From assembly GCF_964204645.1 (NCBI RefSeq), contig NC_134025.1, forward strand, positions 6,639,001 through 6,703,000: 64,000 nt of DNA, given 5' to 3'. The first letter of the stretch is position 1, and each line of letters starts with the position of its first letter. Of this stretch, positions 892 to 63,905 are shown one piece after another. The DNA is from Tubulanus polymorphus. Lineage: Eukaryota; Nemertea; Palaeonemertea; Tubulaniformes; Tubulanidae. The translations under genes were made by a program, and so were the position numbers. The notes below the pieces were generated by a model that was not told the origin of the DNA, searched no databases, and saw only the letters and a list, made by a program, of their open reading frames with translations.

Positions 892-16190
<15,299 letters not shown>

Positions 16191-26200: not shown

Positions 26201-29200
26201 TCTCTTCGTTTCTGTATCCAAGGTTGCAGCCTCTTCTTTAGCTTTCTCTGCTGTAAAAGATTATAGAACCCATTCAACGTCAGAAACTTGCAACAAACTT
26301 CTTCTTCAAATGAAAGATCTGTACCTTGTATGTGATAATGTTGAAGAATAGCTTGAATAACTGTATCCATAAACTGACTAGACAAATACTTGGTAGATAG
26401 CACACGCTCTAAACCCTACAATTCAAATTAATCAAAAACATTTTGAAAAACTTTTGAAAATAGATATGTTTTGATGTTCATCAAAATAGAATAGCAAGAG
26501 ACTAGAACTTTACCTGTATTTTCATTCCAGCAGTCCGCATCTCAGAGAAAATAGCCAATATTTCTGATTCAAGTAAATCTAAAAAAATCGGATATGAATC
26601 AGAATTCAATGGATTATGTTTCATGTCGAATACGGTGGGTTCAAACTTACCTGATTCCTCCTTGTTTTCTCTTAGAGATAATTTCAGTTTCTTCAATAGA
26701 TGCATATCTCTGGCTCTTTTACTGTTCTTATCACTAAAATATCATGAATTAATTCCATATTCAATAAATACAACAAACAATCAAATCATCAGCTCAATGA
26801 AGAATCCCTGTGAAATATACCATCTGTTTCACAATTCAGTTACCTCAGCGCTAAATGGAACGGAACATCGACAACTTTGATTGTTCCATCAACATCTAGC
26901 AGACAACATTGAAATACTTGTCCTTTTCCTTCACGATATGTTACATTATTCAAACCCATCATTCCAAATCCTGGATATGTCAGCGTACACCATTTACCCA
27001 CGTTAAAGGCAGATACTCTCATACCCTGCTGAGCGGTCCAAACCTTAAACACAAAGTAATGACATTGATAATCAATGTTAGTCCTTCATCTTATAGAAAA
27101 TCTAACCATATCAGGGGGAAATAAACAGGTGATTTTATTACCTCTAATATTCCCCTACGTGGTGCGTATATGATGAGAAATAAGGCAGTACGGACTACTT
27201 TTTTGGAACGACTTGAATCTTCTTTCACTTCAACCCAGGCTACTTGCGCGTCGCGATAACCTAAACTAAGGAAAAGAGAGATTTAACCATTTTGATACAC
27301 GTACATCCATCCAACAAAATCTAGAACTTTCAAGTGGTTTGAAGCGGTTCAATATCATGTCGTCTGTAACGATTATACCAACCCTTCCACATTCTGATGG
27401 CTATTCCTTTATCGACATCGATTAGAACAATTCTACCATAACTATCAGTGGTTACAGCTAGCTTATTATTAGGTGATAGCTGTATGGATTCACCCTGGCG
27501 ACGTTTATCAGGCAAACCAAATCTATATGAAAATACGACGCAAAACAAATATCTGTCAGTTATGGGTGAGGCGAGTGGGAATAGACGCTTTAAAACAAAC
27601 ATTGTTACCTGATAGGGAGAGGAGTTGCCGGCTCAACTTTTGGTTTCTTCCTTTTTTCATCTTCACTATTATTTTTACCCCCAATACCAAACCAACCACT
27701 AAAATCCAGATGGTTAAAAGAAAATAATCACTTATCAGTCTTCAATTCAACGATGATATTTCAATGTAGAATGGTGGTGATTACTTACCTAGCTGCAGTG
27801 AATATAGCACTTTTCAACTTGTTAGCCACTGCCAAAGCAACATCTGATAACAGTGGCTGAGCACTTCCCTAAAACAAGCAGACTTGTATAGATCTTTTCT
27901 TATGCATTCTTAATACGGAAAAATTAGGATTTTTTTTTAATTTCAATAATAAAACGTACCTCAACTGCATAAAAGAATCCAACATATGGACCAATACCGG
28001 CAGTGATATACTGAGAAGCAACTGGAGGAGTTGGTTTAATGGAAGCCGAAAATCCACCGAGTAATGAAGCTGCTTTCATTTGATCAAACGGATTTGGATT
28101 TACTATACCTATAATAAGAGATCAATGTCAGATAAAAGTAAAACACGTGCTCACTTAGGATACAACACACAAATACAAGAAATGATTACCATACGTACCT
28201 ACACTAACTTGATCAGTTATAAAATCTTGTTCTTGTAATCCAAACTTTCTATATGCTAGAGGTGGGGGCTGGATACTGTCTGAACCACTAGCGGCAGCTA
28301 CAAATATAGTCGGATATTGGGATAAAATGTAACTGTCAAAAGACATCGTTCACCAGACATCACCTTCATACAAGACATGTCTATCTGTGGAAGATGGATT
28401 CATACTTCTCGGACCTGTAAACACAATCGCATAGTCTGCAGACTTTTACCTCTTGCAACTTGGTTTCGACAAGCTCGCAATGTCTGAAACAAACTAAATC
28501 CATCAATAGAAACCAATGCGTGTGGATAAAGTATCGTCAGTTCTTCGTGTTGTTCGGAATCACCGGTGTATCGGGCAGGTGCGTACGAGCGGCTTTTTAA
28601 CTTCACAACTGGTTCCTCGTGTAACAACTGCGAAATGAGCAGTGTCCCATTCTCGGTGTACATCCTTACATAACCCGTAGAGAAACCAATGATAAAGCAT
28701 GTCCAATCAGCCGCACCTTGTGAGCTGCGCTTCTGACTCGACAATGGTAGGCATATGATGCTCGAAATTATTTCTCTGAAATAAATACGATCAACTCATG
28801 AATAAGAGTAACCAGAAAATAATGATTCTGAATTTTACACAGGGTTTGTTTGATTCATCCGCACGAATAACATTACAAGATAACCAATGACATACATAAA
28901 ACATATAGCTTTTTCATATTTTACACAGGGTTTGTTAATACATCAAATCCATAGGCCCTATATTACAAATATCGTCACAAAATTATCAAATCCTCAATGA
29001 TATACAAATAATAGGTAGCTTTTTTGACACACAAGAATATCAGCTTACCCATCTTCTTCTCCTAGAACACTTTCAGTTGTTACAACAAACTTAGAAACAT
29101 CGTCATCAGAGTCCCACTTTTCTAAAAGAAGGAAACAACACAAATTCTCAATAGCCTATACCTATGAAGAATGTTACCCATATGGGGCCAATTACTCAAA

Positions 29201-32200
29201 AGTTGGTCCAAGATAACTGGCGGATAAATATCATAGTAAAAATTAACTTTTAATAGTCACTATGTCAACAATCCACTGGTTAAGTCTGACCAATTTTTGA
29301 GCGACTGGCCGATGGATGAAATCGAAAAGATCAAAGATACGCACGACTGAGAATTACTATTTTCTTATCATACGCAATCGCCACGTTATCCAACATAGGT
29401 GAAACAGACACGAGACAATTCTGTAACCACGATGACGCTAGGTCGGCATTTTCTTGTTGTTCAGTAGTTTCATCATCAACCTGCCAACCCCAATCCAGAT
29501 CATCTCCCCACCCTCCTGAATCATCATCTATTTATAAGACAGATAGGTACAATTAGCATTAAATGTAAAATGGCAATGTCGTGAAAGGTTCGATTCGACC
29601 AGAGGGGACAGATCCGAGAGAAAGAAGCAACACGTCTGGTTACTACGAAACCTTGGAAGTGACTGATTTTATTTCACATAGATGGAGAATAAACATAAAC
29701 AAGATGTCATCCACAGTAAATATATAAACACAAACCAGATGAGCGGCTTAGTAACCGAACTTTCGAAACACTCCCGGCGGCGGGAAGAAAAGATAGGATG
29801 TATAATGCCTATGTGCTATTAGGAATACCTATGAGGTTAATAAGCCTACGTAAAAAATGAGAAATTAATCAATTTCCAATTTCATATCAGAATCACTAAA
29901 TCTTCGATACATTAAGTTTGCATTACTCTTAATCTTCATTTAACACAAAACTGAGATTGCTTTGACATTAAACATTGACATTAAGCTTTGACGTTAAACT
30001 TTGACATTGCGTTTTCACTACAGAATTTAAGATGAATGGTGAGCTAGTGGACCCGAAAAGTACTGATTTGAAACGATAGACCTTGAAGGGACTATCGGGA
30101 TCCGTAGGATCTGATAGCCATAGAAATTTTGTGAAATTTCTATCGTTTTCACCGAGTTTTACATTTAAAAATGCCTTTTCAATATCACTTGTAAATGCGA
30201 CGTTTTTCGTGCGAAAGCGGATTAATATCTGCACAAGATCATTTATTAATGAAGGACCGCTTTCCAGACAGTCGTTCAAACTAGGATTATCCCCTTGTTT
30301 ACAACTACAATCATAAACAATTCTAATCGGTGTTGTGATTGATTCCTTTTTAACCGAGTGGTGGGGTATGTAATGGCCCTGGCTCTTGTCATCATTTTCT
30401 ACTATCTCAATAAATTCGCGTGAAAGTTGCTCTGCTATTATCGCATTATATGTCTGCCTCAGTTCTGGAGACAAGCGTTTAACCATAGATCTAGTTCTAG
30501 CGGTACAAATATCAAAATTGGTAGGGAGCGGTGGATAATCTTCTTTCCAAGGTAAATTCGCTATATATTTACCACTGGTATCGCGTTTAAGGTAATTGTC
30601 TCGATACGTTTCAAAATTCATTGTTTCAGATTTAATCGTTTCCTTGATGCCAATTACTTCAAGATCCCAGTAGTTAGATAATTTTGAGAATTCATCGTTT
30701 GAATGTATAGTATTCAAAAGACAGGTAGTATGGAGTACCGATGTATTCGCATTCAAATTGATGGGTCCTGATAGAAGGAACCCGAGTTTGGAACTGACAG
30801 CTGTCGGGCCAGCTCCTCTAACCACTTCATTCTCTACGATCGACCAGTAATAATCAGCACCGATTAATAGATTAATTTCACAATTGCTGGTGTTGACGTA
30901 CGGTGCTAATGGTAAATTTCGAAGGTACGGGTGATTTGTCACAGCAAGTTTTACATTGTTCTGAATTGGTGGACATATTTCCGGTACAACTAATGCACGT
31001 AAACCAATTTCGCCTTTACGCGTACGAAGTTTTAAATCTATACTCCGTAGAGTACGTGCCCCAGGCGAATTGTCACCAAAGGTGGAAATATTTACATCTT
31101 GCTTTTCAAATTTGTCCAATCGGACACCTAATTCATTTACCGACTTTTTAGTGATGAATGAGCACTGCGCTCCTTCGTCAAACAAGATATTTACCGTGGT
31201 CGAATTCGAACCATAATTTATTTGACCAATAGCCGATTTCAAGAGAACAGGACTTGAAGTTGGAGCTATATTGACATGAATATTTTTTGATTCAATATGC
31301 GTATCAGTATTTCGATCTATATGAATAGCAGTGTGGTGTTTGCCTTTGCAAACCTTACAACGATATTTCGATTGGCAAGCTGTTACCATGTGATTGCCAA
31401 AACAGTTATAACACTTACGATTTGCCTTTATGATGTCTTGTCGCTTTTTTGGGTTAACGATTATATCGCATGAGAACGCCGTATGTGGACCCTTGCAGAA
31501 CGCGCAACTGTTGTTTTTCGAGGCCGGATTTTTCCTCGTTTTAGTGCTTATATGAAGAGCGGATAATTTTTCATTATCGAAGTTGACGCAGCTCGCTCCT
31601 GCCTGTGTAGCTTGTATTTCCTTTCGGATCGCGTCGCGTAGTTCTTTAAGTGTCCAGGCGCGGTCTCCGTGCTCCCGTGAAATTTGTGTTTTGACGGGAC
31701 TCGGTAGCTTATCGAAGACTACCGGAACGAGTATGTCACCGAACGCATCTTCCGATTTCCCGAGCGCGCGCAATCCTCGAATATATGTTTCCAAAGAATC
31801 GTAAAATTCGCGTAGACTCTCGTGATCCTGCGGTGGCTGCAAATCTAATAAAGCTCTGATGTACGCGTTCACGATCTTGTGAGGTTGACCGTATCTTTCT
31901 ACTAAGATCGTCAGAGCTTCTTTGTAGTTAGCGCTAGTTATTTGCAGACCTTCTATGGTACGCGCTGCTTCGTCAGTGAGTTGTGCGACCAAATATTGAA
32001 ACTTCTGGATATCGTCCAAATGCGGATCGCTATCGACGGCTGAGATGAAATTATCGTAGAAAGTAGACCATTTCAAAATGTCACCATCGAAATTTGGGAG
32101 AGCCAATTTTGGTAGATTGACTTTTTTACTGCCGGTTGAGGTAGTACTGCTTCGATTGATGGTACTTACAGATTCGTTTAGCGATTGTGGTTTTGGTATC

Positions 32201-33178
32201 TTCGCTAGTAGATTATCCAAGTTCAGTTTGAATCGACCGAGTTTGATTTGTATCTCAGTGAGATAATCATCTGATTCAACTATAGTGTTAGTTAACTCGG
32301 TTTCATCAACGATTTCATCCATTAATTGTTGGTCTAATTGTCGTAAATATTCGAATTTTGTGAACAGCGCGTCGATTAAAGTGGAGAACGGTTGAACAGT
32401 TTCCAGAGTTCTTGAACTTTCATCGACGAGTAGAATCTCTGCTAGTTTTTCTTCCGTTTTTCCGAAAATCTTCGTCATTTGGCCCCGTTGGGCCCTTCTG
32501 ATTGCCGTTAGCCTTCCTTCTGACCCCATCCTGGTCACGGCACCAAAATGTCGTGAAAGGTTCGATTCGACCAGAGGGGACAGATCCGAGAGAAAGAAGC
32601 AACACGTCTGGTTACTACGAAACCTTGGAAGTGACTGATTTTATTTCACATAGATGGAGAATAAACATAAACAAGATGTCATCCACAGTAAATATATAAA
32701 CACAAACCAGATGAGCGGCTTAGTAACCGAACTTTCGAAACAGGCAACTATAGACAAAGAGGACTTAGTAGAAGTCTTAGGTTACAAGTAATGACTACTA
32801 TACTACTCTGGATGGAGTGTCCACTGATGACTGCACAAGGGCTTATCGATGGGCTTGTTGGACCATAATGATCTACTAACTATCAGTGATAATGTTCATT
32901 TTCTTATTAAACTGTTAAAGGAAATTATCCAAATCATGGATACAATTGATTTCAAATTATTCTAATGAAAAAAAATCATTTTTCTTAATTGAAGCCACCA
33001 TTAAAAAAATAAACACTATGGAAGCCCATCCTGTTCTGTCCAGCTGTGCTGTCAGTCAGTGTCTGTCCAGTCAGTGTGACTTACCAACTTGGTTTTCACT
33101 TTTTAAATGAGGAAATAAGTAATTTCTAACGTTCGTTATATCGTGAAAATTGGCGATAATGCTCAGTTGACACGCCAT
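20288..33178 (-). CDS. RAB3GAP2: Rab3 GTPase-activating protein non-catalytic subunit
   Basis: Regulatory partner of RAB3GAP1; the complex acts as a GAP for Rab3 and a GEF for Rab18. Exons, minus strand: 33178-33085, 29527-29348, 29121-29049, 28775-28450, 28297-28199, 28108-27960, 27868-27789, 27698-27609, 27522-27383, 27260-27142, 27043-26844, 26733-26651, 26578-26514, 26415-26325, 26250-26093, 26003-25671, 25589-25493, 25401-25256, 25175-24950, 24854-24681, 24593-24487, 24396-24330, 24249-24143, 24054-23980, 23758-23546, 23464-23162, 23077-22919, 20431-20288. They total 4098 nt (1365 aa; human is about 1390). Signatures: [77 protein letters not shown]. The first exon (MACQLSI...YLFPHL) matches the family N-terminus and joins exon 2 in phase 1. 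The donor at 29348 (gtcgtg) is weak but required by frame. Intron 1 carries a BEL/Pao insertion. Confidence 0.95.
20521..20620. mobile_element. Palindromic MITE, copy 3 (RAB3GAP2 last intron)
   Basis: Same family as 7149-7260: a slightly mutated left terminus (ctagttgcacagt), a central TGAAAATGAACT block, then ACTCAGAGTTAA and the right terminus aactgtgaaactag. It sits about 90 bp upstream, in RAB3GAP2 orientation, of the acceptor of the last coding exon (20431-20288). Confidence 0.7.
21703..21810. mobile_element. Palindromic MITE, copy 4 (RAB3GAP2 last intron)
   Basis: Same family as 7149-7260. The left terminus is cccagttccacagttgtgag, the right terminus ctcggaactgtggaactgg, and the centre is the reverse complement of the core of copy 1 (AGTTCATTTTCA). 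The family therefore inserts in both orientations. Confidence 0.75.
28835..28960. repeat. Diverged short tandem duplication in RAB3GAP2 intron
   Basis: The motif ttttacacagggtttgtt occurs near 28836 and again about 80 bp further on, each followed by related AT-rich sequence. It lies in the intron between exons 29121-29049 and 28775-28450. Confidence 0.5.
29577..29770 (-). repeat. BEL/Pao 3' LTR (194 bp)
   Basis: Element-downstream LTR, same length as and apparently identical to 32549-32742. A GC-rich stretch (ccggcggcggg) immediately flanks it on the internal side, with only a short purine run (GGGAG in element sense) as a weak polypurine-tract candidate. Confidence 0.92.
29968..32529 (-). 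CDS. BEL/Pao gag-protease-partial RT polyprotein
   Basis: The first ATG is at 32529, giving 853 residues. The open frame extends three codons further upstream, and the positions here count from that upstream codon. A coiled-coil-prone N-terminus is followed by a DUF1759-type gag region (about 140-290). Three CCHC-like zinc knuckles follow ([26 protein letters not shown], and a CX2CX3HX4H variant; about 345-406). Next is a retropepsin-like DUF1758 segment with FDEGAQ (about 453-458), then the start of a reverse transcriptase with motif A ([12 protein letters not shown], about 784-795) and a FGSTSSPF block. It terminates shortly after, before the catalytic YxDD, so no active RT, RNase H or integrase can be made. 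The remaining frame is intact, which fits a young deletion derivative mobilised in trans. Confidence 0.88.
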   Translation of the reverse strand: MGSEGRLTAIRRAQRGQMTKIFGKTEEKLAEILLVDESSRTLETVQPFSTLIDALFTKFEYLRQLDQQLMDEIVDETELTNTIVESDDYLTEIQIKLGRFKLNLDNLLAKIPKPQSLNESVSTINRSSTTSTGSKKVNLPKLALPNFDGDILKWSTFYDNFISAVDSDPHLDDIQKFQYLVAQLTDEAARTIEGLQITSANYKEALTILVERYGQPHKIVNAYIRALLDLQPPQDHESLREFYDSLETYIRGLRALGKSEDAFGDILVPVVFDKLPSPVKTQISREHGDRAWTLKELRDAIRKEIQATQAGASCVNFDNEKLSALHISTKTRKNPASKNNSCAFCKGPHTAFSCDIIVNPKKRQDIIKANRKCYNCFGNHMVTACQSKYRCKVCKGKHHTAIHIDRNTDTHIESKNIHVNIAPTSSPVLLKSAIGQINYGSNSTTVNILFDEGAQCSFITKKSVNELGVRLDKFEKQDVNISTFGDNSPGARTLRSIDLKLRTRKGEIGLRALVVPEICPPIQNNVKLAVTNHPYLRNLPLAPYVNTSNCEINLLIGADYYWSIVENEVVRGAGPTAVSSKLGFLLSGPINLNANTSVLHTTCLLNTIHSNDEFSKLSNYWDLEVIGIKETIKSETMNFETYRDNYLKRDTSGKYIANLPWKEDYPPLPTNFDICTARTRSMVKRLSPELRQTYNAIIAEQLSREFIEIVENDDKSQGHYIPHHSVKKESITTPIRIVYDCSCKQGDNPSLNDCLESGPSLINDLVQILIRFRTKNVAFTSDIEKAFLNVKLGENDRNFTKFLWLSDPTDPDSPFKVYRFKSVLFGSTSSPFILNSVVKTQCQSLTSKLNVNV
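32535..32545 (-). other. Primer-binding site, tRNA-His type
   Basis: In element orientation TGGTGCCGTGA begins 3-4 nt after the 5' LTR. It is complementary to the 3' end (including CCA) of a typical animal tRNA-His acceptor. Assignment rests on recalled tRNA sequence. Confidence 0.6.
32549..32742 (-). repeat. BEL/Pao 5' LTR (194 bp)
   Basis: Element-upstream LTR, reading identically to 29577-29770, with the right-hand copy of the ggcaa target duplication at 32743-32747. Confidence 0.92.
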
Positions 33179-33472: not shown

Positions 33473-35482
33473 ATGAATAATTTAGACTTGAATCCTAAAA
33501 TAATTAATACTCTTAATAAGTGTGAGTATTTTATTTTATTATTGGCTTATTTGGCTAATATAATCATTTTCCTTGACCTTAATAAACGTCACTCAACAAG
33601 TCAAAACCTAGCTAGTCCTATCGACCGTGGTGGTAAGCTTTTATAATCGGATGGGCTTATACCAATGTGGTTTGTTTTGTGAAAATATCCGATCGTGAAA
33701 CTAAACCACAGACAGGTAACTGACTAAGCCTGTAGTAAATAGAGCCGTATTTAATACCCTACTACTTCAATGACAGACTTCGCTGTACTCGATTACTCGA
33801 AGGCTTTACTATTCAATTCTTGTTCATCCATATTTCTCTTGTCTTTGACTTTTTTGCAGTCAAGTTGACCAGTCCAAGTCACATTCTAAGCTTATCTGCT
33901 CCTGACCTTGAAAGAAAGACCAAGTTGTCATCAAATGATGTCGCGATATTACAAAAAACTGTTGCCAATTCTGTATTGATATCAAAACCAATGACTACTG
34001 GTAGGTAAGATGTAAAAAACTCTTTGATGATGAAAGTGGTGATATTTTGTGAATGATAGACTGTGTATAATCTTTGATGTTCAAATGTTTGAATAATTTC
34101 AGCACATGAAATATTTCATACAGAGTCTGATACTGACGGAAACCGATTAAATGTAGGTTGTCCTATTCTCAATGCATTTCTTGAAGGTAAAAGCGATATA
34201 CCGGTACATGAACCATTATTTTACTCAGTCAAACTTGCTAAACTTAGCATTATTCTCATAAATAATTCTTCTGATATTTTCAGGTGGAATTTTAAGACAA
34301 GGTATCACTGAAATAGTAGGAGAAAGTGCTAGTGGCAAGACGCAACTATGCATGCAGTTATGTTTGACAGTACAGTTACCAGTAAAACAGGGAGGACTTG
34401 ATGGAGGTACCAGCCCTAAGGACCTGATTTGAAAAATTATTTGACCATGGGATTTAGGCTTGTTTTATCTATGGCACAGAAAAGGCTTTAAATTGTAGTC
34501 CAACAATGAGAAATATTTACAGAAAAACAACCTTATAAATATAAGTGTTTGATATTTTCCTGCTGTTGGTTTTCTTTTTAGGAGCGGTTTATTTATGCAC
34601 AGAAGATGCCTTCCCAAACAAACGTCTTCATCAATTAATTCATTACTTTCAAAATAAAGACCTGTTCTCAACTATTGATTTCGGTGATCATATCTATATA
34701 GAACACGCTGCTGATTTGGTAGGTTAGCAACAAAACTTACAGATTTCTTCTTCATTACAAAAATAGCAATCAATCATTTCATTTGACTGAACTAAGCAGC
34801 CGTACAGATTCTGGCAAAAAGATAAACTGATTTGCATATTATCATTTTCAGGAAGGATTACTGTATTGTATAGAGAAGAGAATTCCGTTGCTGTTGGCTC
34901 GAGGTGCGATTAAACTGATTGTCATAGATTCAATAGCTGCTCTATTCAGAGTTGAATATTCGATTAATGAAACTGTGCAGCGAGCAAAACATCTCAATAC
35001 ATTAGGTTCCATATTGCACAGAATGAATAACCGGTATAACATACCTATTGTATGTGTTAATCAGGTACGTTTACGAGTGGTATTCCATCTTTAATATCCG
35101 TCTATAGATATGTATTCAAAAAGGGGCATCTACGTTATTATCACTAGTTTTCATTTTCTTTGAACTGTTCTTATAAACAAACTATTTGGGGCTTGTATCA
35201 ACTTGGTGAAGTATTGATATATTTTCGATTACATATATTATATTACAGGTGACGGCATCATTTACTGATAGATCAAAGAAGTGCGTTCCAGCTCTTGGTT
35301 TGACTTGGGCAAACTTGGTAACTACGCGAATTCAACTGAGTCGAACAACACGTCATGTAACGACTTCACCCGTTCAGATGGAAACTTGTCTACGAACTAT
35401 AGAAGTATTATTTGCCCCACATTTACCTAATAGGCTTTGTCATTATGTGATAAACGACAGGGGAGTCGAAGGCTTGTCGTGA
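33473..35482 (+). CDS. XRCC3: RAD51 paralogue XRCC3
   Basis: ATPase of the RAD51C-XRCC3 complex in homologous recombination. Exons: 33473-33521, 33860-34000, 34103-34186, 34284-34406, 34582-34718, 34852-35064, 35249-35482. They total 981 nt (326 aa; human is 346). The start MNNLDLNPKIINTL aligns with the family N-terminus. Walker A is GESASGKT (104-111) and Walker B is LIVID (200-204). Other signatures are YLCTEDAFPNKRL, VCVNQV, PALGLTWAN and APHLPN. The loop between CVNQV and ALGLTWAN is shorter than I recall in vertebrates, explaining most of the length difference. The exon 2 donor must be at 34001: the stronger-looking site four bases on would bring in a stop. Divergent from RAB3GAP2. Confidence 0.95.
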
Positions 35483-37843
35483 CCTGCCCTTCATTCGCAT
35501 GTGCACATGAACGGAACTTCTCCCTCGAGAGCAAAATTGAGATGATAGATGGCAACAAACGCCTAAGTTCTCATCCTTATATTCGTTTCCATTGTCTGAA
35601 AATGAGAACTGAAACTGACTGAAACATCTGAGGACGGACAATACTCAGATGTAGTTGATAAGTTATTGCTAGTCTAATTCATTGTGACTCAGTGATTTTC
35701 TCATAGGATTTATGAACACCGTTCTTCGTCATAATGTGAATACCTAGTTGAAAGGCTGTTTATTGATATTAATTATGCAAGGTTCATGAAGTCGGGTAAA
35801 TGTCACTATTCTGAGAATATACCAAAACGTAAACAGCAATGAAATGTTACATCATGCAGGATATTAAATGTAGTAGAAACAGATCTTGACTTGCGTTACG
35901 TAAAGAATAAAATTTGAGAACATTTTGAAATAATCAACAAGTGTTGAATTATTTTATTTTCATTTTAGTTTATCCTGAATTTGTACTGCGTGTTTGAAAA
36001 AAATGTGATACACCAAGTGACCTGCTTTTTCGTTTGGAATTTCTACATAATTAAGAGGATATCCTTGCTCACTCGCGTCATATTGGATGATACACTGTGA
36101 GATGAGGTGCATCACAAATATTGGAGAATTCGCTAGAATTGCAAGTTGACAAATCTTCAGAGAATTAATTTAAGCTCAGCCATGCGCGAAGAAAGCGTGA
36201 CCACAATCACGTGGCATGGAATGGACGTTATAAACTTTATTATTTAGAAATTACAAAAACAAAAGCACATGTAAAAAATCACATTTTCTGAGATGTTGAA
36301 CAATATAAATTCAATGAATTCGTACGTGAATTTCATACATGCATTGTCTGGAGTGATTCGATTGGTGTTTATGGAAAGCGAAGAAATTACCAAAAATTAA
36401 TTAATTTTTTGAAGTGATTAGATTATAGACGGTGACGAAATGCACTAATCTCGGCATTACTCGGTACTTTTATTTTCGAGTTGACCCTCATGCCGAAGTG
36501 TACCAGTCTGAATGGTTGCCCGCCTTGGTGGTGCCGCGTAGGAAGAGTATCAAAATGGTACATTGGTCATCGAACGTAACGGCGCGAGTTCGGCTTCCCC
36601 AACTGTTGCAGTGAGGTTTGAGAAAAGTTTCAACTGGTTAATCCTTGGTAGATAGAAAGATAACTTTACTTCATCTTGAAAATGATAGTTTTATAAGGAT
36701 ATCTACATTAAACATGATACAACTGAGTATTTCAACATATATATCTATATTTTTGGCCAACAACATCGGGTCTTCAGTGAGTGTATTCACCTGAATGGAG
36801 ATCGCTAGCGCTAGGCCTAGGCTAATCTCGCAATCTGTGAACCATGTGTTTTTCCGAATCGAAAAACATCATGGATATTGATTCATGGGTTCTAATTCGT
36901 TTTAGAGTCCGTGATTGATTCAAACGATGATGCAGTATTTCGCACCCAATGAAGCATCGCATCAAACACTTTAAGAAAATCGTTTTCCATTTCAGATATG
37001 ATGGTCCAGTGGCGGGAACATTTGCAGTTCAATGTCTATTGACTCATCAAAGGTGTGTCCGCGACTGACCACGGACATCCATCACGACTATCAATTTATT
37101 GCTTGAAGCAAATAAATATCGAACGCGTGTAAGTAAAATTAATACCTAGGCGGTTTGCACTTTGCGGATATTTAGTCAGCTGTCATATGAAATGCATTTA
37201 AGGTTATATTTAAACAGTTAAGAAGCTTTCACGTGTCACATACAGATTCTCGTCTTCACTCGTGGAGATAATCGGAGTTGGGTTTCAACTAGAAGTTCCG
37301 TGCATGAGTTTCCCCTGAAACAACTACATATATGATGTATATACATCAAAGTGAAATTCTAAAATCAATCTCCTAAAACTGCAAACATTCGCACATGTGA
37401 AAGTACCCCAAAATGCAATTGCCAGCTTACGTAATTGAGTTCATAATTCAGGACCTGGTGAGCGGGCTACGGTTGCTATTTGCGAGGTACGTACCAGCTG
37501 AGCACGTCCCAAACCGACCGGAATATTGTGAAATACAAAAGATAAAGTGTTAATTTTGACGTCAAACGATTCGATCCATGCATTAGACTTTATCAAATAT
37601 TCATAGCAACCAGTAAACTGGAGGACTGCACAACCGTCCTATACGATACTGCAGCAAGCCACATGAATAATGTATTCGTTTCTTGACAACGGGACGATGG
37701 AAATCATGCAGCGAGTCCGTAACTGTCAAGCGAGACACACATAAACGTGATGATATCTACAATAATTGTGCCATATGTACGCTGAAATATCGCCAATATG
37801 ACAGATTCTTAACTGTTTTTATATATCAAGACAAAGACGAAAA
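35483..37843. other. XRCC3 3' flank and upstream region of WDR86-like gene
   Basis: A canonical AATAAA at 35906-35911 (plus), about 425 bp past the XRCC3 stop, is a plausible polyadenylation signal. The rest is AT-rich and presumably contains the promoter and any 5' UTR exons of the WD40 gene. No further coding exon was recognised. Confidence 0.5.
35906..35911 (+). terminator. Possible XRCC3 polyadenylation signal
   Basis: AATAAA in the expected orientation, 424 bp downstream of the XRCC3 stop. Confidence 0.4.
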
Positions 37844-40800
37844 ATGGGACTTTGTGGAAGTAAGGACGGTGTCGATTCAACACTGACATATCATTTGCAA
37901 ACGTGTCACGAACATGAAGCTGGAGTAAACTGTATGGCTGTGAGCGAAGATGGCTCGGTGATAGCGACAGGGAGCGAAGACCGAACCGCCAGACTGTGGA
38001 GTAGTAAGACCGAACGATGCGAGTGTATAGGTATACTGACCGGGCATCAGGATTACATCAACTGTATCCTGATCGAAGACAATTACGTCGTGACCGGTTC
38101 GGCCGATAAAACTATCCGAAAATGGGACATGGGTACATGCGAATGTGTGCTTGTCTTCAGTGGTCACAAGTCGCTTATTAATCGAATCATATGCAACGGA
38201 GATTTTATATTTAGCAGCTCGTACGACCGATCCGCCAGATGCTGGGATTTCGAGTCGGGGGAATGTATTCGGGTATTTAATGGACATAAACGAGGGGTCT
38301 ATCCCTTGATATTCATTCCCGGGGAAGAAGAAGAAGAGCCTGTAGACGAATACGACTGGGACGCTACGAAAGACATCCTCATCACCGGAGCGGCTGACTT
38401 CATGGCCAAATCATGGTCATTTGAAACCGGAAAATGCCTGAAAACTTACAAGGGACACACGGGTGCAATCACTTGTATGGCGACTGACGCTCTGGGCAAA
38501 GTGTTATTTACTGGAGGGTCAGATCAGTCGGTCCGTAGCTGGGACATAGCCAAAGGTGACCAGCTCAAACTATTCGAGGGCCACCAGGGAGCAATTATAT
38601 GTTTACAGGTAAAGGTACCAGCTGTCCACGCTCTCCAGCTGCACTCACGTCTCTCACTTTCTCTTCTTCCGGTGTCAATACCAAACACTCCCTTCATTTC
38701 TTCACTCTCCAACTTAAATTCCGTGTACCCAAAATGTAGATATCTCAAAATATAAACGCCTGATTTAAAGAACCTGCAATTGCCGATAAAAGAGATGGAA
38801 AAGAACATATCATAGAGGTCTTGCACGTGACGTCATGGTTTGTTTGCCAACCAGTGTTGAGATCTGCCATACATAACACAAGATAATAAAAAGCGGATTC
38901 ACAAATTTTGAGGGTCTGTCATGTAATTGAGTTATTGCGTTTGCTAACCAATACGGCGTAATCGCGTCAAAAATGACATTACTGCAAGACCTCTTACTCT
39001 ACTTCAGCATTGATTCCTTGAGCCGCAAAATGCGAAGAGGCCGTAAGAATTTTTTTCGAATCACAGCTACCTGCGTGTGGTTTACACGGCACCACGCACC
39101 TCTATCATGCTCCCAGCTTGAAGTAATTATAATAGTAACGCCTAGCTACCAGCTTTTGTTTTCCGTCACTATTTTGAGATCATGAGGCCACATCAAAACG
39201 ATAGCAATGTCTACTTTTAGAAATAGGGAAATTACTTTGAATGATCATCATTTGGATTTGTAATGAATATTGTATCTACAAATTCATTAATAAATACACT
39301 AACTCGTAATTTGAAAACGCCCATTCTAAATTTTGTTTCCCAATGGATTATATAATATTGCAATCAAAAGCGTCATCGCCATAGTCATCGTCAGCGGGCG
39401 CAACTTTCATGAAATGAAACTGATAATTGCCTGTTCAGCGTGCACCATTTCAAGGCTCGATGAGACAAAACTCAATGATGAGAATGTATATAATATATTA
39501 TGCCACTGTGTTTCATGTTAGCGCGCAGAAATATCTATTTTTCTCTTGTAAAAGTAATTGTTCATGTATCGGACTTCACATTAAGTGCCATTCGTTTCCC
39601 CTAGTTACAATATTTTGTTTATAGCTATAATTAAAAAAGAAACCACACCGACGTGATAATTGTTTATAGACTATTCACGTTGTTTCTAATTTCAATGTTA
39701 TTTTGAAAATATCAATTACGAAACCTTGTGGGTGTCCATATCAAAACAGTATACGATAAGTTGATCGTCAATCAATGGGACCAAAATGGACACTTACCAA
39801 TTCCAGATTTTTGCAGAAATTTCAAGTTTGATTCCTCGCCGTGTGTTGTTTTTCAATATTTACCTAAAATATTACGGCGATTATTAATCTATATGCATTT
39901 ACCACAACCAATGGTCTAAAATCCATAAGTAGGACACAATAAATAGTTTCCTTGCTATCTAAACGGACACGCGGCGTAATAAGTTTATGATCTAAAACGT
40001 GTTCATCAGCATCCTCTTCAGATAAAACAAATTCCTTATCAATCTGCTCTCTTTTCTCAAAATCATGTCGTTATTTGAGCGGATTCATAAAAGCTTTTAT
40101 AATCGCCATGTTTTTACGATTAGTATTAATTTCCCCCACAATAAGCACATGAATAAGGTAATAATCACAGTCTTTACTGAATTTTGATTTCTATATATCT
40201 GCCATATTATGATACGTTACAAAAATCAGCTGATTATTTCTACCCTAAATCAAATTGGATTTGACGATACCGTACTACAATAGATTGTGCACCAATCTAA
40301 TTATGCATTTAATGTTCTCGGACATGTGCAGTCGTAATAAATGTAGAAAAAAATACCAGAAAATTCTACATAAAAGAATATGGCTTCATCCAAATATGGA
40401 TCGATTCGACTGCAGTCTTTCCAACATTCAATTGAGATAAGAACCCCGTAAACACCACTTCTAAACAGCAATTTCAACAGGCACATCCGCTTCCGCTTCA
40501 CTCGAAATACGCCAGAAACTGTCAAACCGACGCAGAAAGTTTGTGATACTTTTTTGACGTTTAATTAAAATATCATTTCTTCGAGTCTTGTTGGGAATTT
40601 TTGACGTGAGTGAAAACGATAAGAATTTTTATTTTGAACCCGTTCTCTCTCTCCAATCTTCGACTCGTCGATAAAGATGTTCGTGATGTTTGCTCGCGCT
40701 CGTGAATAAATAATATTTAACTGATACAGAAATAACTGGTCAAAATATCGAGTCAATTCAATTCGCTAGATGATAGTTGATATGTTACGCCCTATTTACA

Positions 40801-43800: not shown

Positions 43801-46800
43801 ACCATTAAACAAGCATATAACGTGTATCATAGAGCATCATTAGCAAATTGACATTTTACGTAGTTATTGGCGCTTATATTCATGTAACTGGCAGCCACAA
43901 TTCACCTAGAAATATCAGACGGGATTGTAAATACACCCGGGGCTCGTGGGAAGGGAAGAAAAGCACTTCATCGGCCGCAACTCTCGTGTCAACTGCTGTA
44001 GTATTAAAACCGGAATTCAACGCCGTATTTAGTCGACTCGTACGTTGTGTCAAGTACATGTGTGACGCTGGAGTGCCGTCATTTAAATGGCAATTTTGAC
44101 GTTTGAAATTAGTTTTTGAATGCAAAATGGCCATTTTACTAATAGATTGGTCGGTTCGATGACGGGCACCGCCCGTCGATCAGCTGCAGATTGACGTTGT
44201 TACAATGCGCAGCGTTAATTACGGTTTACCCATCTCAATCGAGTACAATCAAAACAATTAGTAAAATTTCATGACTGAATATCAGCTATATGCCATTAAG
44301 TTTCAAGAGTGATTTGATGAACGAATTTTCGTTTTCACAAGCCTGCAAAAGGTTCCGCAAAATTTCGGCCAAGTCGAAAGTAGACTCTTGAAAATATGTG
44401 AGTAGTGTACCAATGGCGTACTCGGCGTGCATGAAGTACAAAATTGAAAATGCGCAAAATGATGATAAAAATGCTAGTTCGAGACACGTCGATAACAAAA
44501 TTATTTTCTACCATCGGCCTTCATAATATGTGTGTAGGCTTTAGCCTCATTATATTTTTTTTCAATTTTGCAATTCTGCTATTTGGAATAGAGGATTGGA
44601 AGCTTTTTCATGTAGGTGTACTCGTCGGCGGGCAATTACTTAATTCGTATCTCTCCCAGAATAAACCATGCAAATTGAACATTCACCTCAAATCAACTTT
44701 TTCATTTTCCATTATCTTTTCATATCAAATTCTTATTCCTCATAAGTGAAAATATGCAAATAAACCTGTAAATTCATATCTTTTATTCCTCAAAAGTGAA
44801 AATATGCAAATAAGCCTACATTTTTGTAAATTCAAATTTTATAGGTGGTGAATAAGATCATGTACACAGGTAGCAGTGACCATACCGGTCGCTCGTGGGT
44901 TACAGAATTCGGAGATTGTACCAGAATATATCGAGGCCATAAGCATACTGTTAGTACAATCAGACTTCATGAAGGACTAGGTAAGTTTGTTCCTAATATA
45001 AAGCTTATACATCTAATTCTGACAAATCTAAGTTGACAAGTAAAAAAAAAAAGAACATAGAGAAACGGAAAAGTCAAAAGAGAAACGGAAAAGTAAGGGA
45101 ATCACCTGCTTACATTCGTATACATAAGACCTGTAACTATCCGCTTTGTATTCTGGTCTGGTATCAATTCGGCTCTTATCTCCGTATACAGACCAATGCA
45201 GTACCATCAAAAACATGATTGCAATCCTTTTTATATATGATTTATTGCTGCTATTTGCACATGCAATTGACCAGAATTAACAAGTTTACCCACCACCCTA
45301 ATCCAGTCCCTATATGAGCCTCTCCTCGCTGAGGTTTGCGGGGTTGGGGGATGGGGTTGGGGTGTTTACGAAACAGGTCTTTTTACTTTTCCCATAGTGT
45401 GGCGATTTGAACCACATCTGAAGGATAAAGATTAGATTTAAATTACGTGAATATATTTTTCAGTTATAACAGGATGTGGTGACGGTATGGCGCGGTGTTT
45501 TAACGCCAAGTCCGGTTCGTTGAAGCGTGTCCTCCGAGGTCACGAGTCCGCTGTCAACACACTAGAGGTCGCTACTAGTCACATAAAAAATGTTGTGTAG
45601 ATTATTATCATGTAAATACAACGAGAACTTCAAAATTACATGAAGGAATCTATAGCAGAGGCTATTCGAGTGCCGTCACAATGGCCATAAAGCGCGCTAA
45701 GCGGAAGTAAAAAGTTTTTGACGTATGAAACACGTGACGTGACTAAACCGCAATTTGTGATTCACTTCATCATTTTCCAGTTTCCAATTAAAGGTCTCAA
45801 CGTTATAAACAGTTTCTCATTTGAAGTTCTCGTTAGATAGCTGGAAATATATTGAGCGACTTTCCAATTTTTCAAATAATTCGCCAGTCTCGAAAGAAAA
45901 TATGTGTACGTATTTATGGAAAAGAATATTTGGGCGATATCCAAAAAGCTTTATCTGAATTTGAAATCATATGGTGAATTGTTTGTACATTGGATTGTTG
46001 TTCGCGTATGGTTTAAATGGTATAGCCCACACGTGCCAGTCGGGAACTACATCCTTTAGCCCAGACTGGACTTTCTGGTCAAGGAGCCCACCTTATAGAC
46101 CCCCTTCTAGAATAGTCGTAATCCGCACTTAACAGCACCAGCGTCTCATGTATATATACATTATCCCGTTATTTACTATCGTAATTCTTTTTGTTTTATC
46201 CATTAGTATTCACAACATCAGGGGACGCTATCGCCCGCTGTTTCGATGCCAAGTCGGGCTCACTGAAACGAACGTTTAAGGGACACGAATTATCCGTAAA
46301 TTGCCAACAGGTTAGATCTATTTATACGTTGAGATTACGAGGAGGGATTGTCGCCACTTGTTGCGGTTTTCCAGGTCCTGCGTTGTGAGAAATCCTTCAA
46401 ATCAAATTCGAGTTTTATATACTCTTGCGTCAATAATGATTTGTATTTTGTCTCGTCTCGGTCTTGTGTGCTATACGTATAGGGGTGCATGCCATGGCTG
46501 TATCCGGCATAGATATGGATCTAAACATCATGTCCTCGACAAAATAACCTGTTCGCTTCACACGCCTCACATTTGCCTGACTGGTATCTTCATCAAATAT
46601 AATGATATCATTTAAACTTCAAGCACAAACACAAATATATTCTCACACTCATGTGATTTCGATCATTCGAAATATTCGGAAACGATCATTTACAAATGCG
46701 ATATTTCATTCGTTAAATAGCAATATTGACGTCGTTGCCACTAACATTTTGTGCTTGTTATCTAGATGAAGCTTGAATGAACCAATAGAGTTTCTATGCG

Positions 46801-49029
46801 TTGCTTAGCAATTATTGAATGCCTCAACTTCACCAGCATTAGAATCAATGTTTTAGCACTCAACATTCTTCCTATTTATGTGTTCTATGTAACTTGTCTT
46901 GTCTTGATGTGTTGTGTTATTCGTATCACGTATTTGTTTGTGCTTTTCTTCGTGATGCACGTGTTACATGAGCTCGGTGCTTGTAGTTCGTGAATGTACA
47001 TATTACCATCTTCCGCGCCATTATAGTTTATCAGAACCCATCTAATCGCGTGAGGATATCCGATGTCAAAACGAGCATTAGCAACACAAACAATCGTTAA
47101 TGGTTGAATTAAAAAGCTTTTACGGTCTAAAAAGTTTGTCTCGGATTGCGGCCTTTTAGATTTGTTGAAATTGCGGTTTTAGCTTTCGATGAACTCCACG
47201 AAATCAGAAGCGCGTTACAAAAACATTCATAATGTTTCCAAAGGTCAATTTAAAGAAATCGTACTCCATTTGATAATGTTTCCGTAATCATACATATTTT
47301 TGGTGATGTAAGGCTTATTTTTAAGGAATTATACCACTATACTCGTAGATCATTTTATCGTTTTATTTTCGGCAACCTTTTACAATTCGTTTGAACGCAT
47401 TTCGCGTGAACGTATAGGTTCCAGAGCAATTATATAATTATTTCTCAGTCGCTCATCTCACTGTCTGTTGTCTAGTTCGAAATCATTCGTGTATTTGATT
47501 AAACATGCACACAGCACGATAATCCAACTAATTGCCCTTCCCCAAGTCACGATCGCCTTTTCACCATCGGCTTACCAACGATCGTTGCTATGAAATAGAA
47601 ATTATCGTTCAAAAGCTTCGACCAAATAGTTTGTACTAACCATATCAAAATGGTTAATACGTAACTCAAGGTTAAACTAGAAGTGTTTACATCACAGAAG
47701 ACTATTTAGTGATATCATGATATCATGATTTGAACTATATGAATTGAAACCATGCAGCTTTTCGCTGTATTTTGGGCGGTTCTCGGCTAACCCTGATAGC
47801 AAATTGGCTAAAAGTACTTTTGAAATTGCGACGCCGGATATGTGACAGACATCGCAATCGCTTCGTGGAACGGTTATTGTAGAATCGTCTACGTTGATAT
47901 AAACCAGACTAAGCTACCGATATATCTTAGGCCTACATGGCATAATTCCAGCGCAAACTTTCGAGAGGATTTTGTTCCAGCGGCGCTCTACTTTAGAATG
48001 AGAATTGATCTTCGATTGAATATGAATGTGAATTCCATTCATAACTAAACACAATAGAAATGTAAAGAGTTGCGTGATGTTATTAACAAATCAAACTAAC
48101 ACCGAGTTGTATATACCCCATAGTTTCGGCAATATTAGTTTCCTCTATTGCGATGAAATGCTCCACTTTCAATAAATTTCATGGCAATTTCGTGATTTTT
48201 AAGACTTGGTGGACCGTATCCTGTTATATAATAAATATAAAATTATGTATTCGAAAGATTTACGGATGAAACATCTGAAAACTTCTGAATGTTACCTTGA
48301 AAAACAATTAAATAGAACGCATAATGGCGATCCGTTTGGAAGCCTTGTTCCATTCGACGTTATTCCTCAAACATTTCTTATTTTTGGACATCGATTTATT
48401 TTCGTAACCTTTTTGTTGAACATGCCCTCCTTCAGCGGAATATCATGCTCACCTCGAAAATGGAGGGGGGATGCGATTAATTCTACTGACATTTTGAAAC
48501 GAGGACCGACTGTTGTGGTTATGATTCCCTCCACACTTCACGCAATTCAGTTATCGTAAAAATGGCTTTAAATGACGTCGGAAAACTTTAAATAATTCAC
48601 TGTATATCCAATTGCTACAGAATATTGTTTGAAATTTATCAATTTTGTCAATACTGTGTATCTATTCGAGCCGAATAACTTACAAAACATATACATTTGT
48701 TGATGTTGCAGATAGTCGATGGAAGACTTTTCACCGGTTCGCATGACGGAAGTGTCCGCGTCTGGGATATCACGGGTATGAAGGATGACGTCACTTTCGG
48801 ACGGGCAGACGACAAGAAAAACTCCGAGCAAAAGAAAGAGATCGAAAAACTGAGCGGGATGAAAACTGTCGATGGTAACCAGAATGGAATTAAAAATGGT
48901 GACAGTAAAATCATGATCGGAGATGAATACGCGGAGAGTAATATGCAGAACGGAAATACTGAACACCTTATTGCTACTTCAGATATGACGTCACAAAACA
49001 GAGAGAAAGGTCCTAGAGATAGATTCTAA
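37844..49029 (+). CDS. WDR86: WDR86-like WD40-repeat protein with exclusive exons
   Basis: Exons: 37844-38608, 44845-44980, then either 45464-45567 or 46207-46310, then 48712-49029. With one alternative exon this gives 1323 nt (440 aa). The first exon alone encodes 255 residues and five full blades. Eight WD repeats can be counted, with typical GH...GS.D...W.D spacing (for example HQDYINCILIED, TGSADKTIRKWD, SSSYDRSARCWD). The start MGLCGSK fits an N-myristoylation/palmitoylation signal. The C-terminal tail (about 80 residues) is charged and low in complexity. Similarity to vertebrate WDR86 is seen across the blades, including the SSYDR.AR.W segment. The molecular role of WDR86 is poorly known. 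Orthology is likely but judged from memory. Confidence 0.85.
41321..41581. mobile_element. Non-autonomous element with 17-25-bp terminal inverted repeats
   Basis: 261 bp bounded by gataattgaagaagtcc and its exact inverse; the match continues imperfectly for about eight more bases. The interior contains an acgtttcggcggttgacta block and a catcatcaggtgg block, which are seen in dispersed repeats of many marine invertebrates. No coding capacity, and the target duplication is unclear. It lies in WDR86-like intron 1. Confidence 0.65.
44731..44830. repeat. 50-bp tandem duplication carrying octamer motifs
   Basis: Two adjacent units with a 50-bp period (ttattcctc.taagtgaaaatatgcaaata...) end just before exon 44845-44980. 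Each holds ATGCAAAT (44754-44761 and 44804-44811), the consensus POU-domain octamer. Confidence 0.8.
45340..45362 (+). other. G-quadruplex-type tract upstream of exon 3a
   Basis: Four runs of four or five G separated by TT, AT and TT, on the transcribed-sense strand of WDR86-like intron 2, ending about 100 bp before the exon 3a acceptor. It satisfies the usual G3+N1-7 pattern and could fold in the pre-mRNA. Confidence 0.7.
45464..45567 (+). CDS. WDR86: WDR86-like alternative exon 3a
   Basis: 104 nt entering in phase 1 and leaving in phase 0. It encodes the last strands of WD blade 7 and the start of blade 8 (VITGCGDGMARCFNAKSG...GHESAVNTLE). About 21 of 35 residues are identical to exon 3b at 46207-46310. 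The acceptor is tttttcag and the donor GAG/gtcgct is relatively weak. A G-rich tract lies about 100 bp upstream. Including 3a and 3b together, or skipping both, shifts the frame. Confidence 0.85.
46207..46310 (+). CDS. WDR86: WDR86-like alternative exon 3b
   Basis: 104 nt, same phases as exon 3a, encoding VFTTSGDAIARCFDAKSG...GHELSVNCQQ. FDA and the NC.Q ending are closer to the vertebrate WDR86 segment as I recall it, so 3b may be the ancestral copy. Donor is CAG/gttaga and acceptor is cattag. The exons are 639 bp apart. Confidence 0.88.
46311..48711 (+). other. WDR86-like last intron, 2.4 kb
   Basis: AT-rich intron between exon 3b and the last coding exon. I looked for a third copy of the alternative exon here and in the preceding introns and did not see one. 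Confidence 0.5.
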
Positions 49030-49248
49030 CTTTGATTCTGTCCATATTTCTTAGGATTCGGCTCTATTGATAGTTTTCTTAGGTGTAACTAGTCTCGTAG
49101 CTGCGTTGATATCATTCCAATCTACCAAATCAGGAGAATCTAATCTCCCGATTACTTCTCTCCTTTTCTATTGAAAATTAGGAAAAAGAAATCCGCAAAA
49201 TTCTAAGATAAAACAAATCCCTTTAGAATTAAAGCTTAGATACGTTAT

Positions 49249-49342
49249 TACAGCCAACCCCCGATAAATACAACCCCTTTACAACCACCACCCCCCACCT
49301 TGCACCAGGTTTCCGGGGGTGGTATATCGGGGGTTGACTGTA
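49249..49342. mobile_element. Short pogo-like MITE in WDR86-like 3' UTR
   Basis: 94 bp including flanking TA on each side. The left end is cagccaacccccgata and the right end is its inverse (tatcgggggttgactg). It is related to the longer element at 2648-3361. It lies between the WDR86-like stop codon (49029) and the likely poly(A) signal (49772), so the transcript would carry this inverted repeat. Confidence 0.75.
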
Positions 49343-49771
49343 CTCCCGCAATACACTTTATTTCTACAGAAAATACAATCTGTTATCTATTTTTCTCCAA
49401 ATCTCTACTCTCACAAATTGAAATATGGGTAAACCTAAGAAGCCCTCATATCTTAGTTTTGGAAATATGTTACAGATTATCCCTAGCTCACAAAATTTCT
49501 GAAAAATAAGCACTTCTTAATGGTGCATGTAACCTTGAAATGAGATAAACTCATTAATGACTCATTACATTCACCTTATTTTCACCTATGCCGGGTATAC
49601 AATCTGTGTTTCCCCAGCAGGGTGTGAATGTGTTTTTAGAAATGTATTGGTTTGGTGAATTTTGTAATATAAATCAACTACGATTTCATCTTAATAGATT
49701 TATTCGTTTAATCGTCTAATATACGTAATACAAGCACCATATTATCCATAAAAATGTAAATATAGTACCCA

Positions 49772-61100: not shown

Positions 61101-63905
61101 GATTCCTCATTTGAACTACTGGTATATTATATGATAGCGTTTAAAATACTAATAGAATAAACCATTATTTTTAGAGAGACATGAAGTCTGCTAATTTGAG
61201 AGTAACTGACCTGTACTGTGTTGATAATCTTGGGAATACACTCATAATGACAGCTGCTTTAAACAACAAGTAAGTCATCGAAAAAGCAGATGAATAACAA
61301 CAATAATTGAAGTCGCACAATTTGTATTAAGAAATGAAGAAAACGATTTTTTTAACCAAAAAGGATGAAGTTAATGAAAACTTATTTAGATGGGTAGTAA
61401 AGACACATGTCGAGTAGGCCGAGATTGAATCATGAAGTATTATCCACCCTTTTCTTATTCAGCGTGGAAGATTTATGTCTCTTGATTGAATATGAAGGTT
61501 GCCCGATCAATGCGCAACATGAAAAAAGTGGCCGTACAGCACTGTCTATGGCTTGTATGGTTGGGCACCCAGATATTGTTCGTGAATTACTGAGGTAGTG
61601 CTGCATGAAAAAAACGTAATAGAACTGTGGTTACATAAAGTATTGAATAGCCCTACAATTTGACTCGACCTGGATATTTTGAATTGATCAACCCAAATAC
61701 TATAGTCAAGGTTGATTCTTATGTAAGGACTAAATATTTAAAAATCTAAATCTAAATATTTTAGACATGATGCTGAGGCTGGTATACCAGACATATTTAA
61801 GAAGCTGGCAGTACATTATGCAGTTGAAAATAATCATTATGATGTATTAGAACAACTACTTTCCTGTCGAAGAGGTCTTGTGGTGAGTAGAGGCATGATC
61901 ATCTGTACACCAAAAATTGTGTTTCTTTGAGACAATTGATCGTAATGTTCCAGGGCCTTCCTCAAGCATTAACTATTTGTTCAAATCAACGCATTCGAGA
62001 CCTGCTTCTAAGAGCTAAATACAGGTATGGGTTCATCTTACTGTAAGAAACCAATTCCTGAAAGTTCTTTTTGACATTGAATTTGCATAATATTTTACAG
62101 CCGCCAAGTGGAAATAGTAAATAGTGAACTATTTGAATGTGCTCTCACAGGTGATGCCAGTAAACTATACACAATATTGGAAGATGGTGACGATGTTAAC
62201 AATACAGTGAGTAGCTATATTGATTCGCATGCTAGTTCCAAACTCATTCAATGTGGTGAAGAACAAGTATGATCTTGTGAACAGATACTTGGGTTACAAC
62301 CTATTTACACCTATGAATACAAATAACTTTTTACTAAATGATTACAGAGTGGAGTGGGCGATTGGCCAATCTACCTGGCTGGTGAAAATGGTAATTTAGA
62401 AGTTGTTTCTTTGCTTTATGAGGTATTGTATTAAATTCTTATTTTAATTTTCTAATTCTTATCATAAGATTTGAACTTTATAAGTATAATTTTATTAAAA
62501 GGTAGATACATATCATTATCTACATACAAAATTCGTTTATTTGATGGTTTCATGTTTGTTTACTTTTTAGTTTGGTGGAAATGTTTCCAAAAAACATCCA
62601 AATTCTGGTAATACATTACTGCATGTATTATGTGAAAGAGGACATTTAGAAATTGTTCAGTACTTGTTACAGTTTAGTCGTGCTCAGGTTGTTAAGCGTA
62701 ATGAAACTAAACCTAACTTAGTGTATGTGAATGCTGTAAATAACCAAGGTAAAACTAGTCTCCAAATCGCTGCGGAAAGAGGTATGACTTGATCTTCTTC
62801 TAGTTTCTCAATTTATTTTGATTGAAGATCATAACGTTCGGTTGATTTTGATATTGTCTGTAGGTTTGAGTAAGATAGTGAATCTACTGCTAAAACATGG
62901 GGCAACAACAGCACTTGTGGATCAGACAGGAAATTTATTCCAGTGTCCCGAATACCAAGGCATACAAGTTCTATTAGAGACACATAGAGATGAAAGAATT
63001 CGACAGATTATTAACTTCATCGATGACAAACGGAAGCTCAATAGTTTGAAGTGCATATGGCAGCCACGGTTTGATCACAATTTACGTGATAGATGGGGTG
63101 ACACACCATTAATGATAGCGTGTAGACTAGGACGGATAGATGCAGTGAAGTTTTTACTACAGTCAGCGCTTTATGATTTAATTGATGAAAGTGACACTGA
63201 CAATGAAGACAGTGGGGCAGATTCTGATGAAGGTTCATTCTTGGCATCAAGCACATTCAGTCGTCAATCAACTAGGCTATCAGCAGCTGGTACAGGTAAC
63301 ATGTGCTATCTGTATGAAGCATAAAAATTCTTATGAAAAATTTATACATGTAACCAAATAGCAATAAACCCTTCTGAAATGATGCTTATTGAAGTTACAG
63401 GAAGTTTTAGGTGACTTTATTGTTTTAGCATTAAGGAGTGCAAGTAATTTTCGATATGAAGACCTCCGAAATGATCTTATGACACCAGTATCGACGTACA
63501 CTGTGACAACAGAAATCAACCAAAATCATGTGAACAGAATGCTCCAGACACCGAGATCGCGGATGAATACAGAAGAGACGATAGCAGATCTTACACAAAG
63601 TTATGATAGTTCATCAGATTACATAAGAAGAAGAAGAGAACGAACTGCATCTGAAGCAGAACTCCCTGCACATCATTCCTCAAACCTTCGGTAAATAAAC
63701 TTCAGGAATTTGGTTCATTTTTGTGCGCGGTTTTTCTAAAATGATGTCTTTTTATTTAGAAGAGTAATATCAGCTGAAGATATCGATTCGATGAAAGGAA
63801 ACGGAAAGACGTTTCTTGACCTTCACAATGAGAAATCAGAATCCAGCCAACAATTGGACTCATATCTGCAGAATCTTACATTGCACAAAGCTTCAATATT
63901 CACAG
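58143..63905 (+). CDS. Large ankyrin-repeat protein, partial at 3' end
   Basis: Exons: 58143-58929, 59411-59533, 60108-60353, 60445-60572, 60668-60771, 60890-61034, 61175-61269, 61463-61594, 61765-61882, 61954-62024, 62101-62206, 62348-62422, 62571-62781, 62864-63295, 63411-63690, 63760-63905. About 1066 codons, phases compatible throughout; it continues past the window (last donor phase 1). The first about 200 residues are Ser/Gln-rich and probably disordered. From about residue 265, ankyrin units recur in two clusters: DGYTMLHLACIARND, EGLTPLMIAACQGN, GRCALHYAAQHNHADIV, GRTALSMACMVGHPDIV, NTLLHVLCERGHLEIV, KTSLQIAAERG, DTPLMIACRLGRIDAV. An acidic linker and a basic Ser/Thr-rich region (RRRRERT) follow. 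I could not name the family. A multidomain protein with an N-terminal ankyrin array (for example ROCO/LRRK-like) is one possibility. Confidence 0.85.

Follow-up and report, generated by a model that had tools for sequence, protein, structure and literature searches.

We analysed a 64,000-nucleotide window of the genome of the nemertean Tubulanus polymorphus (NCBI RefSeq assembly GCF_964204645.1, contig NC_134025.1, positions 6,639,001 to 6,703,000), which carries on its plus strand a WD40 gene in which two of the coding exons, designated A and B, encode equivalent segments of the protein. The parts of the gene are as follows.

37844..38608, plus strand: coding exon 1, 765 nt, encoding blades 1-5 and the first strand of blade 6, with the start MGLCGSK
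44845..44980, plus strand: coding exon 2, 136 nt, entered in phase 0 and left in phase 1
45464..45567, plus strand: exon A, 104 nt, version VITGCGDGMARCFNAKSGSLKRVLRGHESAVNTLE
46207..46310, plus strand: exon B, 104 nt, version VFTTSGDAIARCFDAKSGSLKRTFKGHELSVNCQQ, the segment equivalent to that of exon A
48712..49029, plus strand: last coding exon, 318 nt including the stop

The start of exon 1 is the first in-frame ATG past a stop at 37799-37801, with the frame open from 37802, and the exon ends at 38608 with the donor CAG/GTAAAG. Exon 2, preceded by AG and followed by GTAAGT, encodes the remainder of blade 6 and the first strand of blade 7. Exons A and B are each preceded by AG and followed by GT, and both are entered in phase 1 and left in phase 0. 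In the last exon, 22 residues close blade 8 and are followed by a polar tail of 83 residues; taken alone, this exon reaches 21 bits against the WD40 model, below the cut-off of 27. When exons 1 and 2 are joined to either A or B and then to the last exon, the frame is open and encodes 440 residues either way. The original prediction, which was made from the DNA and described a mutually exclusive exon pair in a WDR86-like gene, had the exon coordinates, the two lengths of 104 nt and the phases exactly right.

Several other features lie in the window. On the minus strand there are exons of a calpain family cysteine protease (8741-9727; Peptidase_C2, 136.7 and 63.7 bits) and an exon with the RAB3GAP2 N-terminal domain (28400-28795; 129.8 bits), and on the plus strand there are Rad51-family exons (34262-35094; 44.9 and 36.7 bits) and an ankyrin-repeat exon (62788-63324; Ank, 34.5 bits), perhaps from a larger gene. 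An open frame of 890 residues on the minus strand (29968-32640) resembles, by eye, a retrotransposon polyprotein, and it is flanked by short frames (29528-29668 and about 32600) that appear nearly identical by eye, as if they were terminal repeats. A long trinucleotide tract at 10949-11209 reads as poly-Asp on the plus strand and as poly-Ile or poly-His on the minus strand.

The propeller and its putatively exchanged segment

Against the Pfam WD40 model (PF00400), the protein scores 171.6 bits with A and 166.7 bits with B, both above the cut-off of 27, and thus neither isoform looks decayed. Eight WD40 repeats, seven of them with GH, were counted by eye in the translation, and the protein is probably eight-bladed. 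In other WD40 proteins the N-terminal stretch ahead of the first repeat can complete the last blade, and the corresponding stretch could do the same here. The N-terminus itself (MGLCGSK, encoded by 37844-37864) fits the motifs for N-myristoylation (Gly2, Ser6) and palmitoylation (Cys4), and the protein may be anchored to membranes by this means.

Among the best 60 of 573 matches to solved chains, the best match of the B isoform is Tako8. Version B aligns to this chain without gaps over blades 7-8 (residues 1-69 of 71), and for version A the matches cover residues 30-71 with Tako8 and residues 1-69 with Ika8. Tako8 and Ika8 (PDB 6g6m and 6g6o) are designed symmetric eight-bladed WD40 propellers, and as symmetric designed proteins they are not orthologues of the gene described here. 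The name 'WDR86-like' reflects a putative resemblance; WDR86 is absent from the best 60 of 573 matches to solved chains and from the best 25 of 41 and of 39 Pfam rows, and no family of NCBIfam, a prokaryote library, was matched. Hints as to which copy is the older conflict: exon B appears to be nearer vertebrate WDR86, but the isoform with A has the higher WD40 profile score.

The segment that A and B encode takes in three strands of blade 7 (B, C and D) and, from blade 8, the first strand. By a motif-based assignment of its 35 residues to strands and loops, A and B differ at 3 of 5 residues in strand B, 2 of 4 in the BC turn, 1 of 5 in strand C, none of 5 in the CD turn, 3 of 6 in strand D, 2 of 5 in the DA loop and 3 of 5 in the strand that follows. 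The differences had been said to cluster in the loops, but this is not what the counts give, as 10 of the 21 strand positions differ versus 4 of the 14 in loops and turns (Fisher p 0.31). The BC and DA elements share one side of such propellers. Variation in these elements, together with an invariant CD turn, would fit an altered binding face, for which it is weak evidence.

Kinship and history of exons A and B

The two exons are identical at 62 of 104 nucleotides and encode segments that align without a gap, with exactly 21 of 35 residues identical, where about 21 had been reported. When the window was searched by tblastn, the peptide of A found B at 47.4 bits, versus 26.9 bits for the best other blade of the same protein with A as the query and 32.7 bits with B. 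Chance or a generic resemblance among blades can be ruled out, because no other blade exceeds 32.7 bits. These scores, together with the equal lengths and phases, indicate that A and B are a duplicated exon rather than two members of a repeat family that happen to be alike, and the claim that they are tandem duplicates encoding two versions of one propeller piece is therefore well supported. An artefact of assembly or haplotype separation can also be set aside, given that only 62 of 104 nucleotides are shared, that the flanks are unlike, and that the 639-nt spacer between the copies matches the genome once. There is no third copy in the window, where the best tblastn match beyond the exons of the gene has an E value of 0.089 when B is the query and 0.87 when A is.

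The 42 nucleotide differences fall 10, 8 and 24 at codon positions 1, 2 and 3, with an excess at third positions (p 0.0013). By a Nei-Gojobori count, pS is 0.89, which is above saturation, and pN is 0.24. The 100-nt flanks, compared without gaps, are 26% identical on each side, which is the chance level, and a gapped blastn comparison of 44981-45886 with 45887-48711 matched, at E < 1, only a 50-nt core of the exon. These values and the dissimilar flanks indicate that the duplication is old and that both copies have been under constraint over the greater part of their history.

Simulations under a simple model, with the ancestor drawn from A or B, lead to the same view. A run was counted as a match if it gave at least 24 third-position differences, at most 14 residue differences and no stop. 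If A was neutral since the duplication, none of 4000 runs matched at each of eight divergences. If both copies were constrained (omega 0.12), there were no matches at the three lowest divergences, where the third positions were still too alike, and 0.5 to 13.6% of runs matched at the other five. Hence, constraint acted on both copies for most of the time since they arose, and the model as simulated excludes unbroken neutrality of A. A recent loss of constraint on exon A is possible. With compatibility defined as at most 14 residue differences and no stop, the most permissive setting that was run (omega 0.05, T 1.0) gave P 0.64 in 1500 runs when A was neutral for the last 10% of its history, P 0.21 when it was neutral for the last 20%, and 0.1% compatible runs when it was neutral for the last half. 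At omega 0.1 and T 1.0, the values for the last 10% and 20% were P 0.30 and 0.06. Divergence by codon position can in this way help to tell whether an alternative exon is still live or is a duplicate that died long ago.

Splice sites, reading frame and the choice between exons

The donor sites that bear on the choice are listed here, with scores taken from a generic weight matrix; percentiles are among the 3377 GTs scored in the window.

45485..45490, plus strand: donor-like site inside exon A, ACG/GTATGG, score 3.1, which would yield a 21-nt form of A (45464-45484)
45568..45573, plus strand: 5' splice site of exon A, GAG/GTCGCT, weak, score -1.21, percentile 82.4
46311..46316, plus strand: 5' splice site of exon B, CAG/GTTAGA, score 3.01, percentile 97.5

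On the same generic matrix the donor of exon 2 scores 6.33. Of the 18 nucleotides counted before each acceptor, pyrimidines make up 11 for A and 15 for B; the counts are 10 for exon 2 and 11 for the last exon. On account of its stronger donor and the greater number of pyrimidines ahead of its acceptor, B is probably the default form and A the regulated form, which would need activation.

We consider it likely, from the sequence, that A and B form a two-exon mutually exclusive cluster within one WD40 gene. The two copies would descend from one 104-nt exon that was duplicated in tandem long ago, and exon 2, which ends at 44980, would be joined to either A or B and then to 48712. Two 440-residue proteins would result, differing at 14 residues, which lie in blade 7 and in the first strand of blade 8, the closing blade. 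Both exons would be spliced into mRNA, always in exclusive fashion, and the exchange would tune the binding of partners rather than the fold. Only tentatively would we go further and propose that the blade switch is old and conserved across the class or phylum, and that the protein is a membrane-anchored WD40 adaptor that changes partners by tissue, with A as a specialised form dependent on an activator; this fuller scenario is possible, though we regard it as rather doubtful.

Joint use or skipping of the exons would be unproductive mainly through frameshift. When full A is followed by full B, a stop is reached after 354 residues, 44 nt upstream of the last junction, and when both exons are skipped a stop is reached after 311 residues, within the last exon. 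The usual decay rule sets a distance of 50-55 nt, and neither product clearly satisfies it, so the frame renders these products faulty but does not make their destruction certain. The assertion that exactly one exon must be chosen thus holds in part: use of both full exons or of neither does shift the frame, but the 21-nt form of A, ending at 45484, can be joined to full B with the frame remaining open. Enforcement of exclusivity by the frame is for this reason not airtight.

There was no indication of a steric, U2/U12 or paired-intron mechanism. The spacer between A and B is 639 nt long, which makes steric blocking unlikely. For competing pairing between introns, the best ungapped score of the three intron pairs was attained in 8, 18 and 26 of 60 shuffles, though gapped or short pairings may exist. 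No U12-type sites are apparent by eye in the donors that follow exon 2, A and B, judged against the U12 consensus. The nearest AG upstream of the acceptor of B is 65 nt off, and hence no distant branch point is implied for this exon.

The low donor score of A beside that of B could also mean that A is a once-used duplicate whose 5' splice site was lately lost, with B now constitutive and A skipped, and a recent neutral phase does fit the divergence in simulations. We think this unlikely. Exon A is free of stops and retains its AG and GT, its isoform lies slightly above that of B on the WD40 profile, and the simulated model excludes neutrality ever since the duplication. Moreover, weak splice sites are common in alternative exons.

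Two further explanations draw on details of exon A itself, and both seem to us more improbable still. A and B might be neighbouring cassettes, with the 21-nt form of A spliced to B in frame, or with both exons included in a regulated unproductive mRNA. The internal donor at 45484 does outscore the one at A's own end, and the frame through short A and B is open; however, a strand of blade 7 would occur twice in the hybrid (VITGCGD VFTTSGD), and a propeller would be expected to tolerate this poorly; moreover, residue conservation between A and B extends across all 104 nt of A rather than the first 21 alone. This makes the hybrid very unlikely in our estimation. We assign the lowest probability of all, and a slight one, to the idea that A is an alternative last exon, in which read-through beyond the weak donor would add VATSHIKNVV, stop at 45600 and leave a truncated propeller. 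The frame 45451-45600 is open and the nearest downstream poly(A)-like hexamer is an ATTAAA at 45787, but the AATAAA hexamers within 44981-49600 lie at 48171 and 48230, the product would be without its closing blade, and in the alignment A ends exactly where B is spliced.

Related systems and genome context

The arrangement is not unprecedented, since a blade exchange has been published for coronin and since many human clusters contain frame-breaking exons. According to excerpts of the report on tetrapod CORO6 (coronin-1D), exons 5a and 5b are mutually exclusive and swap almost a whole WD40 repeat, a stretch that runs from within a strand of one blade through the next; 5b is nearer the fish exon, and the pair was found by genome comparison (PMC3203266). 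As in CORO6, a tandem-duplicated exon pair would exchange a WD40 segment in the gene described here; unlike this gene, CORO6, as described in those excerpts, is a vertebrate gene with a seven-bladed coronin domain and a role in actin binding. In abalone ITGA8, exon 5 lies within the integrin propeller and is mutually exclusive by RT-PCR and sequencing, and on the basis of structure predictions its authors propose that the exon choice alters ligand binding (PMC13170236). This case shares with ours an invertebrate host and a part of a beta-propeller varied by exon choice, although the integrin propeller, unlike that of this gene, is not of the WD40 kind.

Among human mutually exclusive clusters, the sections consulted of a survey give 377 of 629 (60%) as containing exons that are not divisible by three, and report joint-inclusion reads for 83 of those 377 (PMC5740500). 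Like the clusters described in those sections, A and B are homologous, of similar length and in the same phase, with ends mostly inside secondary structure; unlike them, the A/B cluster is predicted from DNA, whereas the human ones were validated by RNA-seq (PMC5740500). In the main text of that survey, 'WD40', 'propeller' and 'WDR' are absent. In Dscam, excerpts of the literature describe docking-site and selector splicing, by which one of several tandem duplicated exons is chosen (PMC6071210). By comparison with that system as described in those excerpts, ungapped intron pairing here is no better than in shuffles and the introns of the two copies are dissimilar (PMC6071210).

The A/B pair would be a further example of this known arrangement, and another WD40 propeller gene, beside coronin, with a blade exchanged through splicing. 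Among the titles and abstract openings of the matches listed, no propeller exon swaps appeared beyond those of PMC3203266 and PMC13170236; the main text of PMC9741552 has no occurrence of 'WD40', 'WDR' or 'propeller', and nothing relevant was found in the available parts of PMC9013439. The view that no such pair had been described for WDR86 was upheld to the extent that no report was found, and that in the literature searched WDR86 is mentioned together with 'mutually exclusive' in unrelated senses. WDR86 is mostly a name in expression and methylation lists, as judged from titles and abstract openings among the matches listed. If both forms prove to be expressed according to tissue, a comparison of their partners would indicate the binding surface and the function of the protein.

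The gene looks single-copy: the scored matches in the genome, which is 267.8 Mb in size (267,791,593 bases in 77 contigs), include one such locus. The B isoform has at least 29 matches in the genome, 5 of them in the exons of the gene itself and 24 elsewhere, at 52.1 bits or less. In two genome searches, 2 of at least 6 and these 24 of at least 29 matches fall outside the window, at 20-47% identity, and a retrocopy was rejected as no contiguous spliced copy occurs among the matches of either search. One of the outside matches is a WD40 gene on another contig (C5; L012, 1-2096) that is FBXW7-like by eye and that apparently uses the non-consensus donor CAAG/GTTCGT at L012:1714.
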